Assembly: GCA_019638115.1 (NCBI GenBank)
Contig: JAHBUK010000002.1
Span: forward strand, 317,867 to 381,866
DNA: 64,000 nucleotides
Source of the DNA: Flavobacteriales bacterium
Lineage (GTDB): Bacteria; Bacteroidota; Bacteroidia; Flavobacteriales_F; PHOS-HE28
Direction of reading: 5' to 3'
The position numbers and the translations under genes were made by a program. The notes under the pieces were generated by a model. It was not told the DNA's origin. It was given only the letters and a program-made list of their open reading frames with translations, and made no database searches. Positions 9,744 through 30,933 of this stretch are shown one piece after another. Position 1 is the stretch's first letter; the number at the start of each line of letters is the position of its first letter.

Positions 9744-10871
9744 CTACTTCAAGCGGTACCCGGCCTCAATGGGGTAGTGGTCGCTCACGTCGATGTCCTT
9801 GCGGGTGGTGGAGTACCGCACGTCCAGTTCGGGGCTGTGGAACTGGTTGTCGATCCGGATGAACCAAGGGAAGTGGTGGTAAGTGAACCCGAATCCCCGG
9901 CCGGCCTCCTCATGTGCATTGCGGAAGATCTGCTTCAGGCGCTGGTAGGTGTCGGAGTAGGGCAGCGCGTTGATATCGGCACAAAGGATAACGCGGTGCG
10001 GACTGGTACTTAGGAATTCCTCCACAATGCTCATCTCGCGGTTCCGCACTTCATGTCCCCAGCGAAGCCGGTCATGGATGTCCCGCAGGTTGGAAAGCAC
10101 GTTGGAAAAGGCGGATGTACTGTCGCTCTGTTTCCAGCGGATGCTCATTGAGCGCAGTTGCAGGTTCACCACGCGGATGGTGTCGCCGTCAATGGCGAAG
10201 TCGTTCCAGTGGCCGTTGTAGCTCTCCTTATAGCCAAGGTCCAGCCGCCCACTGCTGAAGGCCGGGAACTTGCTGAAGGTGGCCACGCCGATGGTTCCCG
10301 CGTAATCGTCGTTGAAGACCGGATTGGTGTAGAAGTAGTTGAACCCACCGAGGCGGATGATCGAGTCAACGGCCATCTCATCGTCCGATCCATGCCCGTG
10401 GTAGAATTCCTGAATGCAGAGGATGTCGGGCACATCGCCGGTGCGGAGGAAGGCGTAGAACGAGCTGTAAAGCACGCTATCGCTCTCCAGCGTGGACGGT
10501 CGGTAGGGGTTGAAGAGTGCCGCATTGAAGCTCATCACCCGCAGGTCCACGCCACTCGGATCGCGCAGGAAGTTGAAGGCGAAGGTCTCCTGCATGGGCT
10601 TCAGGGAGAGCAGCAGTGCCACGGTGGGTAGCAGCAAATGGAGAAGGCCAGGCCGAAGCAGCAGGGCCAGCACGAAATTGATGATGACCGCCACCAGTAT
10701 CACCGGCATGAAAAAGCTCAGCAACTCCAACCACCAACTGCTGAGGATCATGTAGCTGATGAGCACGGTGAGCACCGCGAAGATCAGCGGAAGAAACCAG
10801 CAGAACAGCCCGCACCCCAAGCGCTTGCGCCAGTTAAAGCCTGGTCGAATGGCCTTGTTCGCACCCCTCAA
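9744..10871 (-). CDS. Membrane-anchored endonuclease/exonuclease/phosphatase family protein
   Basis: The reading frame opens with a TTG start at 10871; the next Met is 40 codons in and would lose the first membrane helix. Three N-terminal hydrophobic helices (about residues 20-95) precede an EEP catalytic domain with 'VMSFNAALFNP', 'DILCIQEF' (Mg-binding Glu), 'ATFSKFPA', 'CADINALPYS' and the terminal 'SDHYPI' (catalytic His). The family covers nucleases, sphingomyelinases and inositol phosphatases; substrate cannot be assigned. Similar membrane-anchored EEP proteins are common in Bacteroidota. Confidence 0.87.
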   Translation of the reverse strand: MRGANKAIRPGFNWRKRLGCGLFCWFLPLIFAVLTVLISYMILSSWWLELLSFFMPVILVAVIINFVLALLLRPGLLHLLLPTVALLLSLKPMQETFAFNFLRDPSGVDLRVMSFNAALFNPYRPSTLESDSVLYSSFYAFLRTGDVPDILCIQEFYHGHGSDDEMAVDSIIRLGGFNYFYTNPVFNDDYAGTIGVATFSKFPAFSSGRLDLGYKESYNGHWNDFAIDGDTIRVVNLQLRSMSIRWKQSDSTSAFSNVLSNLRDIHDRLRWGHEVRNREMSIVEEFLSTSPHRVILCADINALPYSDTYQRLKQIFRNAHEEAGRGFGFTYHHFPWFIRIDNQFHSPELDVRYSTTRKDIDVSDHYPIEAGYRLK

Positions 10872-11060
10872 AACGCCGAATGTTTCAGGGATTCAAGGAA
10901 AGAGCGATATGTCCTTGGAGTGCGGTTCAAGAGGCGGGAGAGTGCGTCGAAAGCAGAATGGAGGCGGTGGTGTTGTTTGGCTGTGTGCGCGGCGATCAAG
11001 AGCGTACCAGCAGGTCGTTCGATCCAAGCGTGGTGTTCAAAGCTAAGCTGGTGGCTGTAG

Positions 11061-11885
11061 TCAGCACCGTTCGTTCACCAGCTGCGGTTTTTCGATGCTG
11101 AGCAGGAAGGCCATGCAGAGGGCATTAAACCGTTCGGCTTGCTCAATGGTGACCACATGGCCGCAGCGTGGGAGCACTTCCAAACGCACGCTCTCATGTA
11201 GGCGGGCATAGCGTTGCGCCTGGTCCAGGAACAGGTGGTCCTGTGCGCCCATCACCACCAACTGCGGAATGTCCGAGTGTGCTGCGAAGAGTCGCTTCAA
11301 GGTCTTATTGAGTCCCTGGTACATGGAAGTCCACTTGCGGAATTCAGCGGTGCTGAGGAAGCGCGATTCACGGATGAAGACCTCGCGGGAGCGCTGGTGG
11401 TTCTTGCGGGGCATCATGATCCGTGCACTGATCCGGTAGAAAGCCGGATAGCCGATCACCTTGGCCATGGTGAGGCTTGCGGTGGCCAGCACTTTCAGGC
11501 CACTGCTCAAACGCACGATGGCTCCACCGTTCACCACGGAAGCCACCTGTTGTGGCCGTTGTTCCCGCATGCTGAGCGCGATCACCGAGCCGAGCGAAAC
11601 ACCCAGGAGATGCACGGCACCCAAGCGCAGGTGGTCCACCACGGCCCAGATGCGCTCACCGATGTGCTCGAAGGTGTAGGCTGTTTCGTTATTGGGGCGT
11701 TCCGACATGCGGCCGTGTCCGGGAAGGTCCAACACCAGCAGGTTGTAGCGCTGCCCCAGTTCGGGTACCTGCCGTTTCCAGGTAACGGTACTGCCGCCTG
11801 CGCCATGGATCAGCACAAGCCATTCAGCAGCAGCATGGGCAATGTGGGTCTCGTGGTACAGCAGGTCCTCAATTCTCCGAAGCAT
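11061..11885 (-). CDS. Alpha/beta hydrolase
   Basis: A 274-residue alpha/beta hydrolase. The oxyanion-hole motif 'LIHGAGGS' is followed by 'DLPGHGRM', the nucleophile elbow 'GVSLGS', a helical cap, the acid strand 'VVMGAQDHLF' and the catalytic His in 'RCGHVVTIEQ'. All three triad positions are therefore present. ATG at 11885 is preferred over a TTG two codons upstream. The substrate is unknown; esterase or C-C hydrolase activity are both typical. The 190 bp between it and the EEP gene hold no recognisable feature. Confidence 0.88.
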   Translation of the reverse strand: MLRRIEDLLYHETHIAHAAAEWLVLIHGAGGSTVTWKRQVPELGQRYNLLVLDLPGHGRMSERPNNETAYTFEHIGERIWAVVDHLRLGAVHLLGVSLGSVIALSMREQRPQQVASVVNGGAIVRLSSGLKVLATASLTMAKVIGYPAFYRISARIMMPRKNHQRSREVFIRESRFLSTAEFRKWTSMYQGLNKTLKRLFAAHSDIPQLVVMGAQDHLFLDQAQRYARLHESVRLEVLPRCGHVVTIEQAERFNALCMAFLLSIEKPQLVNERC

Positions 11886-11957
11886 GCCCAAAGAACCGAC
11901 AAATGCGTCGGAAGGTTCTTGTAGATGGATACCCGCACGGGGTCGTTATGATCGGAG

Positions 11958-13889
11958 CTACTCCAACAAGAACTCCCGCATGAACTGCACCATCGCGTAG
12001 AACTGGTAGTCCTGGTTGCCCTTCTTGCGGAAGCCGTGGCCCTCGTCGTTGGCCATCAGGAACCACACGGTGCCGCCTTGGGCCTGTATGCGATCTTTCA
12101 TTTGCACGGCCTCGCTGGCGGGTACGCGGGGGTCGTTGCCGCCTTGGATGATGAAGAGCGGTTTGGTGATCTTCTCCGTGTGGTTCAAGGGCGAGATCTT
12201 CTCCAGGAAGGCGGCCATCTTCGGATCGCGCTCATCGCCATATTCCACGCGGCGCAGGTCGCGGCGGTAGTCCTCGGTGTTCTTCAGGAAGGTGTTGAAG
12301 TTGCTGATGCCCACGATGTCGATCGCGCAGCGGATGCGGTCTGCATAGTGTACGCTAACGGCAAGCGTCATGTAGCCGCCGTAGCTGCCGCCCATCACCA
12401 GAATACGGTCGGCGTCCAGGTCGGGCTGCGTGGCGATCCAGTCCAGCAGCGCACCGATGTCCTTCACGCTCTCCTCGCGTTGGTATCCGTTGTCGAGGTC
12501 CAGGAAAGTCTTGCCGAAGCCGCTGCTGCCGCGCACGTTGGGGTAGATCATCGCCGCGCCCAGCTCGTTCAGGTAGTAGTTGTTGCGGCCTTGGAAGCCT
12601 GGCCGCGATTGCCCCTCGGGCCCGCCGTGTATGCTGATGATCACCGGACGCTTGCCGGTGAATTTCGCATGTGGCCGGTACAGGAAGCCGCTGATCGTGC
12701 GCTTGTCGAAGCTGGGCCAGGTGATCAGCTCGGGTTCGCGCAGGCCGCTCACATCCATGCCGCCGCTCTCGCTTTCGGTCCAGCGCGTCAGCTTCCGGGT
12801 ATCGAGGTCGTAGCTGTACGCGTCACTGCTGGAGTCGTAGGTGCTCAGGGTAAGGCCGAGCACGCGTCCATCGGCCGTCCACTTCAGCCCACCGATGATG
12901 CTGACCGGAAGCCCTTCCACCGCCTCGTAGCGGAGTGTTCCGGTATGGAGGATGTACAGCCTGCTCAGTCCGTTCTCGTTGGTGGTGAAGGCGAGCTTGC
13001 TACCGTCCTTGCTCAGGTCGGTGGAGGCCACGTCCCACGGGATATCCGGCGTGAGCACGGTGAGCTTCTTCGTGCCGAGATCGTAGTGGCATAAGCGGTT
13101 GAACTCGCTGCCCTTGTTGCTTGTGAGGAAGATGCCCTTGCCGTCGGGTGCGAAGCAGATGGCGCGGTAGGTGGTGCGCTCGTCCTTGGCGGGTAGGATG
13201 CGCGTGCGTTTGCCCGTGCCGGCATCCAGCAGGTGGATGCGGCTCTCGTTCACGGAGATGTACTCGCCCATGAGCAACTGCTTATCATCGGGGCTCCAGT
13301 CGCTCACGCCCCAGCCACCGCCGCTGTTCTCGCACAGCACCTTGTCCGTGGCTGGGTCCACCGGGTCCATCAGGCGGATGTCGCGGTCCTTGCCGTTCCG
13401 GGTAGTGCTGCCGTAGGCGATGCGCTTGCCGTCGCGGCTCCATACCATGCCGCCGTTCTGCGAGCGACCGCCATCGGTGAGCAGGGTGGTCCTGCCGCCG
13501 TCCACATCGAAGCGGAAGATCTGCCCGAACTCATTGCCCCCTTGGTCCTTGGTGAAGAGGAAGTAGCTGCCCGCATTGGGCTCGTAGGTGGCGCCACCCA
13601 CGGTTTCGGCGAAGAATGTGATCTGCGCGCGCGCGCCGCCGGGCATCAACACACGGTGCAGTTGGTTGCTATTGCCGAAGCGGGTGCTGATGATCATCTC
13701 ACGCCGCTGCGGATGCCAATCGCTGAAGCTGGCCCCGCGCCCTTCGGTGTAGGTGCGCACCTCGTCGGCGATGGATGCCGGAAGGGCCGGTATGCCTTCC
13801 ACCACCAGATTGTCGGTGACGGGTATGGTGCCCTGCTGGGCGAGTAGTGAAGAGGAGAGGAGGAGGACAGGGAGGAGGAGGTGACGCAT
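11958..13889 (-). CDS. S9 family prolyl-oligopeptidase-like peptidase, exported
   Basis: The start at 13889 gives MRHLLLPVLLLSSSLLAQQ, a clean signal peptide. The 643-residue protein has an N-terminal beta-propeller of WD/TolB-like blades ('YGSTTRNGKDRDIRLMDP', 'GVSDWSPDDKQLLMG' type) and a C-terminal peptidase S9 catalytic domain with Ser in 'GGSYGGYM', Asp in 'GGNDPRVP' and His in 'NDEGHGF'. It probably degrades peptides in the periplasm. An upstream 26-residue extension is open but carries no export signal of its own. Confidence 0.93.
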   Translation of the reverse strand: MRHLLLPVLLLSSSLLAQQGTIPVTDNLVVEGIPALPASIADEVRTYTEGRGASFSDWHPQRREMIISTRFGNSNQLHRVLMPGGARAQITFFAETVGGATYEPNAGSYFLFTKDQGGNEFGQIFRFDVDGGRTTLLTDGGRSQNGGMVWSRDGKRIAYGSTTRNGKDRDIRLMDPVDPATDKVLCENSGGGWGVSDWSPDDKQLLMGEYISVNESRIHLLDAGTGKRTRILPAKDERTTYRAICFAPDGKGIFLTSNKGSEFNRLCHYDLGTKKLTVLTPDIPWDVASTDLSKDGSKLAFTTNENGLSRLYILHTGTLRYEAVEGLPVSIIGGLKWTADGRVLGLTLSTYDSSSDAYSYDLDTRKLTRWTESESGGMDVSGLREPELITWPSFDKRTISGFLYRPHAKFTGKRPVIISIHGGPEGQSRPGFQGRNNYYLNELGAAMIYPNVRGSSGFGKTFLDLDNGYQREESVKDIGALLDWIATQPDLDADRILVMGGSYGGYMTLAVSVHYADRIRCAIDIVGISNFNTFLKNTEDYRRDLRRVEYGDERDPKMAAFLEKISPLNHTEKITKPLFIIQGGNDPRVPASEAVQMKDRIQAQGGTVWFLMANDEGHGFRKKGNQDYQFYAMVQFMREFLLE

Positions 13890-13980
13890 GGGACTTGGAT
13901 GGGAGCACGAAACTATCCAACTGGCACGACCTCTATTTCTCGGAGCCTCTACACGCCCATCCGACATCCTCAGTATGCTC

Positions 13981-14655
13981 CTACCGCTTCGCTCTGAAGA
14001 ACCGTATCTGTTCCAATCGTGTTCTGGCTTGCTCTTCGTTGTGAACGCCGCGATCCAACCGTTCCTCCACGAAATAGTCCTCGGAATGGCAGGCCGTTGC
14101 GTGCTCTATGGATCGGAGCAGGTCGTACTCATTGCATGCCTTGCAACGGATTATCGTCCATGCTGGTTGGACTGATCCCGGATCCTTGCCAAGCACTTGG
14201 GTGGTCATCATCGCATGACACTTGGAGCATTCCTGCGAGAAGCTCTCCAAAACCTTCGGTCGCCGTCTGAACAACTTGGTGATCTTCAGCAAGGTGCCAA
14301 GCACGGGGCCGTACATCCACTGGTTCAACACGCCCGAGATGTCCACGGATACAATGCTGGCGAGCCGGTGGAATTCGTCGCATATCATTTCCCGTTCCTC
14401 CGTGTCGAGTTCCGTTGCCCGCAGATCGTACAAGGCATGCTTCAGTATCCGCTTCATTGCAGCACGCGGACTTCCGGTTTCCACGGCATGCATCAAGTGT
14501 TGCGCACATTGGTTCAGTGCATTCTCCAAACGCTCACAGAGCTCATTGTCCGAGGGTTCCAGCCCCCGGTCATACCATGCATCGGGTGCGAATTTCCTGC
14601 GCTCAATATAGGCCTGAAGTTGTGCCAATACGCGTGGTGTACCCATTGAGCTCAT
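13981..14655 (-). CDS. Unrecognised protein with zinc-ribbon-like CxxC pairs
   Basis: I do not recognise this 224-residue protein with certainty. The first half is helical ('NELCERLENALNQCAQHLMHAV', 'MKRILKHALYDLRATELDTE') and may be related to the DUF4844 group. The second half carries CSKC and, about 40 residues later, CKAC, a spacing suitable for a zinc ribbon, followed by a charged tail. No signal peptide is evident, so it is probably cytoplasmic. It stands alone between the S9 peptidase and the C45-like gene. Confidence 0.65.
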   Translation of the reverse strand: MSSMGTPRVLAQLQAYIERRKFAPDAWYDRGLEPSDNELCERLENALNQCAQHLMHAVETGSPRAAMKRILKHALYDLRATELDTEEREMICDEFHRLASIVSVDISGVLNQWMYGPVLGTLLKITKLFRRRPKVLESFSQECSKCHAMMTTQVLGKDPGSVQPAWTIIRCKACNEYDLLRSIEHATACHSEDYFVEERLDRGVHNEEQARTRLEQIRFFRAKR

Positions 14656-27382: not shown

Positions 27383-27418
27383 CCGCAGGGTCCCGCTAAA
27401 TGGGCGGAGACCCTGCGG
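27383..27418 (+). terminator. cphA transcription terminator-like hairpin
   Basis: CCGCAGGGTC (27383-27392) pairs perfectly with GACCCTGCGG (27409-27418), and the inner CCGC/GCGG adds four pairs. It begins 9 bp after the cphA stop. No T-run follows, so it may act as a stability hairpin. Confidence 0.5.
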
Positions 27419-27507
27419 AGGTTGGTATGCGAACGGGGGGGCGACGAAGGGGGGAAGGTTCTGACGAAGAGCTAGCTGATTTTGCGAACCCAAAACATCT
27501 AAACGAA

Positions 27508-28749
27508 ATGGGAGTCTATCGTGACCGCAGTATAATATCCTTTGTAGACTTAAAATCACCTCGTGATCCTGGTTATTTCATCAGTCAGATTTATCGTGGT
27601 GGACTGGAAGGTATAATCTCGTTTCAACTTGATTTTACAAAAGTTGAAACAGTATTTCCTAACTCAGCAGTACCTATAGCAGGGTTGATTGAATACTATA
27701 AGATGAATGGAATTGTATTTGATATAATTGGGCTTACTGAAATAGTTGACTATACGGGAATTTTGAATTCAATTGTGCCTCAAAGTCATGACGAGCTAAT
27801 TTCTATGAACGTTTTGAATAGAATATTTAAGTTTTCAAACTCTAATGAAGTACACTGGATAGTTAATGGATTTATCAAAGCATTTGAGAAGAGTGATGTT
27901 TTTGAGAAAGGAGTACTTCAGGGGCTTCAATGGTGCATTAATGAATCCATGGATAATGTATTGCTCCATTCAGGGCAAGAGGTGGGTTACGTGATGGCCC
28001 AGATTCACAAGACCTCGAAGCATGTTGCTCTTACGGTCTTCGACTCTGGACAAGGAATCTACAACTCGCTTAGAGCCTCTCCTCACCGGCCCAGACATGC
28101 AATAGATGCACTAACATTGAGTCTCCAGGAGCGAGTCACTCGAGATCGTAACATAGGACAGGGGAATGGCATGTTTGGACTGAGGCGTGTGATTGAGTTT
28201 AACGAAGGAAGGCTTGCTCTAACTTCACATTCAGCCTCTTATCTGATACAAGGACGTGAAGCACGGACATTTGACAAGATTCCATTTCCCTCAAGGGACA
28301 GAGCATGTACAACGGTCGATATTCAACTTGACTATGGTCGTGAAGTATCTATTGCCGAGGCGCTCATGTTTGATGGTCAATCATACATCCCGGTCGACAT
28401 GCGTTTTGAAGCTATGGAAGATGAACATGGCCAAATCAGGTACTGTATTCAGTCCGAATCTGAGGGGTTTGGAACTAGGATGGCGGCAGCCCGGGCTCGG
28501 AACGATATCATGAATCTAATAAACTCTCATTCTGGAGTAGTATTGCTAGACTTTGAAGGGATTGAACTAATATCATCGTCGTACGCTGATGAATTTGTTG
28601 GGAAGCTTGTGGTGATGTTCGGATTCGTAGGCTTTAATCAACGCTTCCGCTTAGTGGGTATGAGCAGTTTAGTCCAAGGCATCGTTCACCGGTCAGTCGC
28701 GATGAGGCTGGCAGAAACATTCCAATCAGGGATGGGGTCGACCTCTTGA
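27508..28749 (+). CDS. Single-chain STAS-like / GHKL ATPase / STAS-like (DUF4325) protein
   Basis: From ATG 27508 the product is 413 residues. Residues 35-75 ('IISFQLDFTKVE..FPNSAVPIAGLI') look like a STAS strand-helix. Residues 138-230 are a GHKL ATPase: N-box 'NESMDN' (E146, N150), G1 'DSGQG' (179-183), G2 'GQGNGMFGL' (218-226). Residues 343-367 ('GVVLLDFEGIELISSSYADE') match DUF4325, a STAS-like group. Anti-sigma kinases and their STAS antagonists are normally separate proteins. Codon use is clearly AT-richer than all neighbours, suggesting transfer. ATGs at 27400 and 27427 lie in or just after the cphA hairpin and are less likely starts. Confidence 0.8.
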   Translation: MGVYRDRSIISFVDLKSPRDPGYFISQIYRGGLEGIISFQLDFTKVETVFPNSAVPIAGLIEYYKMNGIVFDIIGLTEIVDYTGILNSIVPQSHDELISMNVLNRIFKFSNSNEVHWIVNGFIKAFEKSDVFEKGVLQGLQWCINESMDNVLLHSGQEVGYVMAQIHKTSKHVALTVFDSGQGIYNSLRASPHRPRHAIDALTLSLQERVTRDRNIGQGNGMFGLRRVIEFNEGRLALTSHSASYLIQGREARTFDKIPFPSRDRACTTVDIQLDYGREVSIAEALMFDGQSYIPVDMRFEAMEDEHGQIRYCIQSESEGFGTRMAAARARNDIMNLINSHSGVVLLDFEGIELISSSYADEFVGKLVVMFGFVGFNQRFRLVGMSSLVQGIVHRSVAMRLAETFQSGMGSTS

Positions 28750-28769
28750 TGACCTAATTATCAGGCGTT

Positions 28770-28806: not shown

Positions 28807-28901
28807 GCAGAAAAGGATTCACCGGTCCAATAACCCAACGCCTTGTTGGTTAGGCTGGTGAGCATCAGTTAATGAGCCCGGCTTCGTGCCGGGCTTTTTT
28901 A
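28807..28901 (+). ncRNA. Small-RNA candidate with its own promoter and terminator
   Basis: About 95 nt from the predicted start to the end of a strong intrinsic terminator. No good reading frame lies inside. A hairpin 'TAACCCAAC..GTTGGTTA' (28833-28856, one bulge) precedes the terminator stem. The sequence does not resemble tRNA, tmRNA, 6S RNA or the SRP RNA loop as I know them. Downstream of the terminator there is no plus-strand gene, so it is not a leader. Confidence 0.5.
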
Positions 28902-28902
28902 T
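28875..28902 (+). terminator. Intrinsic terminator
   Basis: AGCCCGGC, loop TTCGT, GCCGGGCT followed by six T's: a textbook rho-independent terminator. Confidence 0.85.
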
Positions 28903-29079: not shown

Positions 29080-30066
29080 TTACCCAAGGAGCGATCCGGC
29101 CAGCGCTCCGAGCAATTCCGAAGGCAGGCTACCGATAATGCCTTGGGCGAGCTGAGCGATTAGAGGCAAGCGCGGCTTGGGTTCATCTAGCTTCTCTTTG
29201 AGGAACTCCAGATCGGCCTTGAGGCTCACGAACTGTTCGGCGGTGATCAGTTGCTGGATCTCGTCCAGCTTGGCCGTCACGCGCTCGGCAAAGGCCCGCG
29301 TCTCGGCGAGTTGATTGCCCACGTTGGCGGTCTGTGTGGCGTTGGGGCTGTTGCTCTGGATCTGGACGTTGGAATTGTTGGCGTTGATGCTGTTGTACGT
29401 TATAGATGCCGCACGATCAGCCTCCGCTCGCTCCAATGCACGACGGCCAGCGTCGAGTATGCGGAACGCTTTGTTCCCCGCTACGATCTTGATCAACCCG
29501 TCCTGGTCGAGTTCGTCACGGAGGCGCTTGCACTTGGCCTCATCGAAGCCCAACTCGTCCTTGATGAACTTGTGATCCACCGCTTGGAACGTCGGGCTGT
29601 CGGGCTTCTGCTTGATTGCGTAGGCGTATGCGGCGGCAAGAAACTCTGCACGCTCTATCGCGTTGCGCTTGTGGATGTTGTCCATGATCTTGTTGAACCA
29701 GTCTCTTGCAACAATGGTGTTGGGCGATGTGGCATAGTGCTGCACCAGTTGGTGTAAGACATTGTATTTCAAATGGTCCAGGAATACCGCAACCTCTTGT
29801 CCAGTCTTCTCGAAATGCGCTTTGTGGTAATCCAGGAAATCCCATACCCGCTGGGGCGGGTTGAGCTTGCGAAGCTTCTCTCGGAACTGTCGATCATAGT
29901 CTTCGACCTTCACATCCGAATGATAGCCGTATGTCTGCTTCCTGCCATTGTATGCCCCGACACTCGCCACATGAACGTACCTGCGATCACCGAGGTCCTT
30001 CAGGTCGAACTCGTGTGTGTTGGCGGCATCTGCGCCTATGCTGTAAGGTACTTCAACCATGCTCAT
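29080..30066 (-). CDS. Unrecognised winged-helix-like protein with Asn/Gln-rich linker
   Basis: A 328-residue protein of unknown family, second in a two-gene operon (ATGA overlap with the gene before it). Residues 150-215 ('FIKDELGFDEAKCKRLRDEL..DGLI' to 'LDAGRRALERA') look like a winged helix. A linker at 225-250 ('INANNSNVQIQSNSPNATQ') is Asn/Gln-rich, then a coiled-coil stretch ('RVTAKLDEIQQLI', 'LKADLEFLKEKL') and a hydrophobic Gly/Leu-rich tail ending SLLG. Similar layouts occur in uncharacterised accessory genes. A defence or toxin role is only a guess. Confidence 0.65.
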   Translation of the reverse strand: MSMVEVPYSIGADAANTHEFDLKDLGDRRYVHVASVGAYNGRKQTYGYHSDVKVEDYDRQFREKLRKLNPPQRVWDFLDYHKAHFEKTGQEVAVFLDHLKYNVLHQLVQHYATSPNTIVARDWFNKIMDNIHKRNAIERAEFLAAAYAYAIKQKPDSPTFQAVDHKFIKDELGFDEAKCKRLRDELDQDGLIKIVAGNKAFRILDAGRRALERAEADRAASITYNSINANNSNVQIQSNSPNATQTANVGNQLAETRAFAERVTAKLDEIQQLITAEQFVSLKADLEFLKEKLDEPKPRLPLIAQLAQGIIGSLPSELLGALAGSLLG

Positions 30067-30549: not shown

Positions 30550-30933
30550 TCACCCCAGATACTCCTTCCCGAAAGCTTGCGCGTTCATGATCTTGGTGCG
30601 GCCGTGCTTCTCCAGTACCAGCAGGTCCCGGTCACCGGTAACCAACACATGGGCATTGGCGGTCTTGGCCAGGGCCAGGAGGTAGTCGTCGTCAGGGGCG
30701 CGGGATATCGCCTGCTTCAGGTCGTTGTCCGCATGGATGGTGCCTACTTCGGCCAATAGTTCGAGCAGTAACGAGGCTTGTTCAGCGGTGAAGTACTTGG
30801 CGAACTTGGTCTTGGTCGCCTGCTCCTCGATCTGCGCCAGCAGCTTGTTGCTGAGGATCAGTTCCACTGACTTCGAGAAGAGGAAGATCCGCAACTTGAG
30901 CATGGAGCCGCCGATCAGCAGGCTCGCGTGCAC
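30550..30933 (-). CDS. Degenerate PIN-domain toxin-like protein
   Basis: The 127-residue frame resembles a PIN-family toxin component: 'VELILSNKLLAQIEEQATKTKF', 'APDDDYLLALAKTANAHVLVTGDRDLL' and a C-terminal 'KIMNAQAFGKEYL'. The conserved 'D.D' pairs near the C-terminus remain. Upstream, codons in frame read LELNVHASLLIGGS where DTNV is usual, so the first catalytic Asp-Thr is altered to Glu-Leu. Only a GTG (30933) is available as a start downstream of that motif; an in-frame stop lies at 30964-30966. It may be inactive or a pseudogene. No antitoxin gene is evident beside it. Confidence 0.6.
   Translation of the reverse strand: MHASLLIGGSMLKLRIFLFSKSVELILSNKLLAQIEEQATKTKFAKYFTAEQASLLLELLAEVGTIHADNDLKQAISRAPDDDYLLALAKTANAHVLVTGDRDLLVLEKHGRTKIMNAQAFGKEYLG

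Follow-up and report, generated by a model that had tools for sequence, protein, structure and literature searches.

The window analysed here, a stretch of 64,000 nucleotides from a Flavobacteriales bacterium (GCA_019638115.1, contig JAHBUK010000002.1), contains a gene for a 413-aa protein with the domain order STAS–GHKL–STAS, hereafter referred to as KS, which is preceded by cphA (Table 1; L-numbers are labels of the compared loci). An alternative upstream ATG is possible at 27400. Since the closest homologue of KS, a protein of Algoriphagus (L011) with 52% identity, has its first residue exactly opposite residue 1 in the alignment, the start at 27508 is favoured and the upstream one seems, from sequence comparison, less likely. 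The gene has a GC content of 43% (GC3 39%) versus 63% (GC3 86%) in cphA, and its full form is found in only 1 of the 45 genomes of the genus, namely this one; across the phylum it occurs sporadically (4 of 395 genomes). The low GC content in comparison with the gene next door, together with the restriction to a single congeneric genome, indicates that the KS gene was probably acquired by horizontal transfer, as the earlier note had proposed from base composition. In an empty-site comparison, same-genus relatives align with the window as far as the stop codon of cphA and then diverge completely and, thus, the exact ends of the insertion are not readable.

The genes located 3' of KS in the window are encoded on the opposite strand, are themselves patchy in the genus and form no conserved operon with KS, which corrects the previous mention of accessory genes following it. 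A GC-rich hairpin with a T run (agcccggcttcgtgccgggctttttt), seen by eye at 28875-28902, lies between KS and these genes. One gene (29080-30066, minus strand), also patchy in the genus, encodes a 328-aa protein of unassigned function, whose C-terminal region weakly resembles AbiTi and the phage-defence candidate PDC-M14B, the latter match being weak (2.6e-6) and limited to that region. Another gene (30550-30933, minus strand) encodes a PIN-domain toxin-like protein (TIGR00305, 1.3e-14) without an evident antitoxin alongside, and its high GC3 (0.83) suggests a long residence in the genome.

Table 1. Coordinates of the KS gene, its domains and its conserved motifs in the window.
Feature	Coordinates	Strand	Basis
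Single-chain STAS-GHKL-STAS protein KS	27508..28749	+	413 aa; ORF and translation; >80 full-length homologues
AT-rich patch, probably horizontally acquired	27460..28760	.	GC and GC3; 1/45 congeneric genomes; relatives' match ends at cphA stop codon
N-terminal STAS-fold domain, residues 1-106	27508..27825	+	Domain model pLDDT 90.7, pTM 0.79; STAS matches Z 7-9
GHKL kinase domain, anti-sigma-factor kinase type, about residues 103-278	27814..28341	+	Structural match; HATPase_c 2.7e-4
N-box NESMDNVLLHS, residues 145-155	27940..27972	+	E146, N150, H154 invariant, 82/82
G1 box DSGQGI, residues 179-184	28042..28059	+	D179, G181, G183 in 82/82
G2 box GQGNGMFG, residues 217-224	28156..28179	+	G219, G221 in 82/82
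Conserved inter-domain segment, residues 276-322	28333..28473	+	Length of 42-48 residues in each of the 72 sequences aligned
C-terminal STAS-like DUF4325 domain, about residues 310-410	28435..28737	+	PF14213 3.6e-8; VapS 9z7o 7.4e-8
Codon of Ser357, candidate phospho-acceptor	28576..28578	+	81/82 conserved; aligned with VapS S48 (9z7o)

The AlphaFold model of KS, built from 72 sequences of the window and the loci, has high confidence along the whole chain (pLDDT 94.0, pTM 0.90) and leaves none of the 413 residues outside the two STAS domains, the kinase fold and the linker, with no effector domain such as a nuclease, an NADase or a membrane segment. Among Pfam families, DUF4325 (PF14213) matches residues 344-389 with 33.4 bits, above the curated cut-off of 23, while HATPase_c matches residues 138-242 below its cut-off. 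As modelled, the kinase fold is closest to SpoIIAB (Z 15.2, 2.2 Å, 132 residues), RsbW (11.7) and UsfX (11.4), which phosphorylate STAS proteins, with topoisomerases and histidine kinases far behind SpoIIAB at Z 9-10; a search of a viral library with KS returned only partial-fold matches. Residues 1-106, modelled alone, match STAS proteins over nearly their full length, e.g., RsbS (Z 8.8, 89 residues), TM1442 (8.7), and SpoIIAA (8.1). Since unrelated proteins, namely the glutaminase Mglu and CtpA/B, reach similarly high scores against this domain, the assignment relies on the many whole-domain STAS matches and not on one top score. The N-terminal STAS domain has no Ser at the acceptor position, and its profile detects no match to the C-terminal one. 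In turn, a family profile of the C-terminal domain finds the STAS protein VapS (PDB 9z7o), and the tail past R400 comprises only about 10 residues (median 9.5 across 72 aligned sequences). HMM searches (DUF4325, HATPase_c), the AlphaFold model and the structural matches at the N-terminus therefore agree on the order STAS, GHKL, STAS-like that had been read from the sequence, and the two STAS folds expected to flank the GHKL fold were both recovered, through structural matches at the N-terminus and through VapS at the C-terminus.

Residue conservation was counted across 82 aligned KS-family sequences. In addition to the motif residues of the GHKL domain (Table 1), R324 is invariant in all of them, while S358, D361, and E362 each vary once. 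The N-box of SpoIIAB has the spacing E-x3-N-x3-H, which is the same in KS. Ser357 is aligned with the phospho-acceptor S48 of VapS at the start of helix 2, a numbering that assumes 18 tag residues in the 134-residue construct of 9z7o; S48 has been reported as the acceptor serine of VapS (PMC13373217).

A scan of genome contigs retrieved at least 156 relatives of KS, the best 80 of which, together with plasmid, phage-collection and viral-contig copies, yield more than 80 full-length homologues that share the same domain order and are spread over more than ten phyla, a few of them on viral contigs and plasmids. These homologues and the near-fixed length of the inter-domain segment show that the fusion is neither a chance event nor an annotation artefact, the second of which the earlier note had contemplated, and the fusion is, judging from these sequences, an old and maintained architecture. 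Kinase and STAS substrate in one chain are already known from Mycobacterium tuberculosis Rv1364c, which combines PAS, PP2C, kinase and STAS domains in one polypeptide and acts on SigF (PMC9138534), contrary to the previous statement that the kinase and its STAS partner are separate proteins in partner-switching systems. However, Rv1364c differs from KS in the PAS and PP2C domains located in front, in its SigF target and in the absence of an N-terminal STAS domain. A description of the STAS–GHKL–STAS family was not found in the freely available journal papers searched, among which DUF4325 is mentioned only incidentally.

The two halves of KS are also encoded as adjacent kinase and DUF4325 genes by a phage of Clostridioides (L006), a plasmid of Alicyclobacillus (L004) and prophage-like loci of Bacteroidota (L129/L130), and phrog_3364 matches KS residues 39-253 at 7.7e-18. 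The phrog_3364 and DUF4325 pairs contain the same halves in the same order, although as two genes and with Asn at the serine position in the phage-type pairs L006 and L010; thus, Ser357 is not universal in DUF4325. In L006 and L004, the end of the kinase and the start of the STAS gene coincide with the inter-domain segment of KS. Since the split genes meet at this very segment of the fused chain, the KS protein of the window is, on the evidence of these gene boundaries, one such pair fused in line.

Two related systems have been described in 2026 as two-protein modules: CapK (HTH-STAS-GHKL) with CapS (STAS-wHTH), and VapK (STAS-GHKL) with VapS, formed by a STAS domain and a C-terminal toxin-blocking helix, accompanied by the PIN toxin VapC (PMC13373217, EMBO J 2026). 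CapK is activated by ssDNA and phosphorylates a serine of the STAS protein, a step that releases the output; 88 of 443 capKS pairs adjoin restriction-modification systems, every capK is followed by a separate capS, and a fused form is not mentioned in the text of this source that was searched (PMC13373217). Among the loci compared, a Deinococcus plasmid (L134:3018-4864) has an operon of the vapKSC type, which encodes an ATP-binding protein, a STAS-like protein and a PIN protein. The KS family profile matches both the STAS and GHKL parts of its VapK at 1.1e-23, and its VapS with a C-terminal match at 7.2e-7. A second vapKSC-type operon (L135:5733-7559) comes from a Bacteroidota genome whose class is also that of the window's genome. 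VapKSC thus shares with KS a STAS-GHKL kinase and a STAS substrate, with sequence homology in both halves and an aligned acceptor serine, whereas its kinase and substrate are separate proteins, accompanied by a PIN toxin, and KS is one chain without the C-terminal helix of VapS. No VapC homologue was found near KS-family members in the fetched neighbourhoods. The PIN gene of the window was considered as a VapC partner and rejected, as its product has no similarity to the VapC of vapKSC at E 1e-3 and the gene lies on the opposite strand about 1.8 kb away. CapKS, compared by description only, resembles the KS family in the STAS domain before GHKL, the STAS substrate and, for part of the KS loci, the location beside restriction-modification and immune genes, but the N-terminal HTH of CapK is absent from KS, whose chain starts with STAS strands, and so is the C-terminal wHTH of CapS, no domain being found after the C-terminal STAS. 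Therefore, on account of the lack of HTH, wHTH, VapS tail and VapC, and of not being two proteins, KS is a member of neither CapKS nor VapKSC and is set apart by the defining features tested. The comparison with partner-switching systems made in the earlier note holds for the kinase and STAS folds, whereas the nearest relatives are the defence-linked CapKS and VapKSC pairs and the uncharacterised phrog_3364/DUF4325 pair rather than sigma-factor systems. SpoIIAB/SpoIIAA and RsbW/RsbV have the kinase fold and the STAS fold in common with KS but, unlike it, are separate proteins with a sigma factor as target and no STAS domain before the kinase.

Clustering of the neighbours places restriction-modification genes of type I or type IIG near 15 of about 85 KS loci. 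They share the strand of KS in almost every case and are frequently separated from it by 0-17 bp, although these counts are approximate because the gene calls are simple longest-ORF calls. KS is embedded in type I operons in L022 (hsdM-KS-hsdS-hsdR), L062 (hsdM-hsdS-KS-hsdR), and L037 (hsdS-KS-hsdR), and it directly precedes hsdM-hsdS in L005; among the immediate neighbours, PADLOC recognises specificity, methylase and restriction subunits of type I systems as well as type IIG enzymes. At the sixth position out from KS, no type I family appears among the 25 families listed, a ranking in which any strong match would be expected to show up. Mapped onto the family tree, linkage to restriction genes requires 10 parsimony changes, which represent gains or losses and hence indicate repeated association and not the number of origins. 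Most KS loci, including that of the window, lack neighbouring restriction or immune genes, and no immune operon lies beside KS in the window. In L032, a Cas9-like protein (RuvC_III, 1226 aa) is encoded at 10560-14237, about 0.5 kb downstream of a KS homologue.

By analogy, KS would most likely work like CapKS and VapKSC, and on balance we lean towards considering it a form of the CapK/CapS–VapK/VapS switch condensed into one chain. In it, the N-terminal STAS and GHKL domains would represent the kinase part (CapK/VapK) and the C-terminal DUF4325 domain the STAS substrate (CapS/VapS), the conserved segment connecting the end of the former to the start of the latter. A self-contained switch, as suggested in the earlier note, is thereby supported as a possibility. 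From the same analogy we infer that KS has kinase activity, that Ser357 is the acceptor, that phosphorylation takes place in cis or between chains, and that the signal is ssDNA or DNA damage. In this mechanism, a stress signal such as the ssDNA produced when DNA is damaged or restricted or when a phage infects the cell would activate the kinase, which would phosphorylate Ser357 in the C-terminal STAS domain of its own or a neighbouring chain and, consequently, alter what this domain binds. Regarding the signal, the N-terminal domain has an aromatic residue (F/Y) at position 50 in 75 of the 82 sequences and P51 in 77. In an ungapped alignment, the ssDNA-contacting aromatic of CapK (W68) and VapK (F54) appears opposite residue 48, two residues off the conserved F50 and, for this reason, ssDNA sensing by KS is uncertain. 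As the C-terminal domain ends without a tail that could bind DNA or inhibit a toxin, its output probably consists in binding another protein. For restriction-linked members, this partner might be a subunit of the restriction-modification system or a regulator of it; for the embedded operons, such a subunit is a matter of speculation. The full chain of events, i.e., a one-gene DNA-damage switch inserted by bacteria into restriction-modification operons, in which ssDNA made by restriction of the cell's own DNA leads to self-phosphorylation and direct binding then restrains or re-arms the restriction enzyme, is a long shot.

A widespread single-chain form of these modules, which have been described as pairs of proteins (PMC13373217), would show that sensor, kinase and substrate constitute a portable unit. 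Moreover, it would allow phosphorylation in cis to be assayed directly with a single purified protein. The KS genes inside type I operons would be concrete candidates for tying restriction enzymes to DNA damage and, if the reading as a control of restriction were true, it would provide a new mechanism of restriction alleviation.

Alternatively, KS could be a conventional partner-switching regulator, whose kinase would hold a sigma factor encoded at a distance and let it go depending on whether the STAS domain in the same chain is phosphorylated, as in Rv1364c. The resemblance of the kinase fold to the anti-sigma factors SpoIIAB, RsbW, and UsfX, and the existence of a single-chain kinase–STAS protein acting on SigF (PMC9138534), speak for this explanation. 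Nevertheless, no sigma factor or PP2C gene is recognised adjacent to KS in the window, just as had been stated before; Sigma70_r2 is found in 2 of 78 upstream neighbours, two genes recognised by sequence (L026 and L051) lying on the opposite strand; PP2C is absent among the 25 families listed per neighbour list; and the extra N-terminal STAS domain is a feature of CapK and VapK. This explanation is thus unlikely. The chance is similarly low that KS is a stand-alone anti-phage or toxin-like effector, whose ATPase would itself do the work without a partner: the gene appears to move alone, as reflected by its presence in 4 of 395 genomes, its changing neighbours, the solitary foreign patch and the viral and plasmid copies, but its 413 residues are accounted for, with about 10 residues after R400, and include no effector domain.

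It is clearly improbable that KS acts in some lineages as a house-keeping regulator of an operon partner, e.g., glycyl-tRNA synthetase, with an incidental linkage to defence. This possibility arises from six beta-proteobacterial genomes (L083:8905-10131, L084, L085, L086, L087, and L089), in which glyQ and glyS, for the alpha and beta chains of glycyl-tRNA synthetase, enclose the KS gene, the ends overlapping or nearly touching, and gmhB-like and plsC-like genes come next. However, these members form one clade on the family tree and the glyQ–glyS setting is limited to it, whereas the restriction-modification linkage is found on several branches; among 185 genomes of the class of L086, a KS gene of this type occurs in that of L086 only. 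Least probable of all is a mechanical GHKL ATPase of the MORC, MutL or topoisomerase type instead of a kinase, given that the Bergerat fold yields Z 9-10 to topoisomerase ATPase domains but SpoIIAB stands 5 Z units higher over nearly the whole length, that a linker and a STAS domain follow the ATPase in place of an S5/transducer domain, and that the PADLOC match of KS to the long DrmA profile PDLC02567 (1.2e-26) is confined to positions 118-395 of the profile, the region matched by real DrmA helicases starting at 417.

The identity of KS as a DISARM DrmA was rejected, the real helicases matching positions 417-1734 of PDLC02567, outside the KS match, and no DrmA was found near KS-family members in the loci checked. 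This profile (1750 positions) behaves like a composite: its N-terminal ~410 positions match the KS kinase family and not DrmA helicases, and it may mislabel KS-like proteins as DISARM. In a DISARM-like locus (L124:1401-12392), two more GHKL-like ATPase genes (474 and 653 aa) were recognised by sequence beside DrmA.
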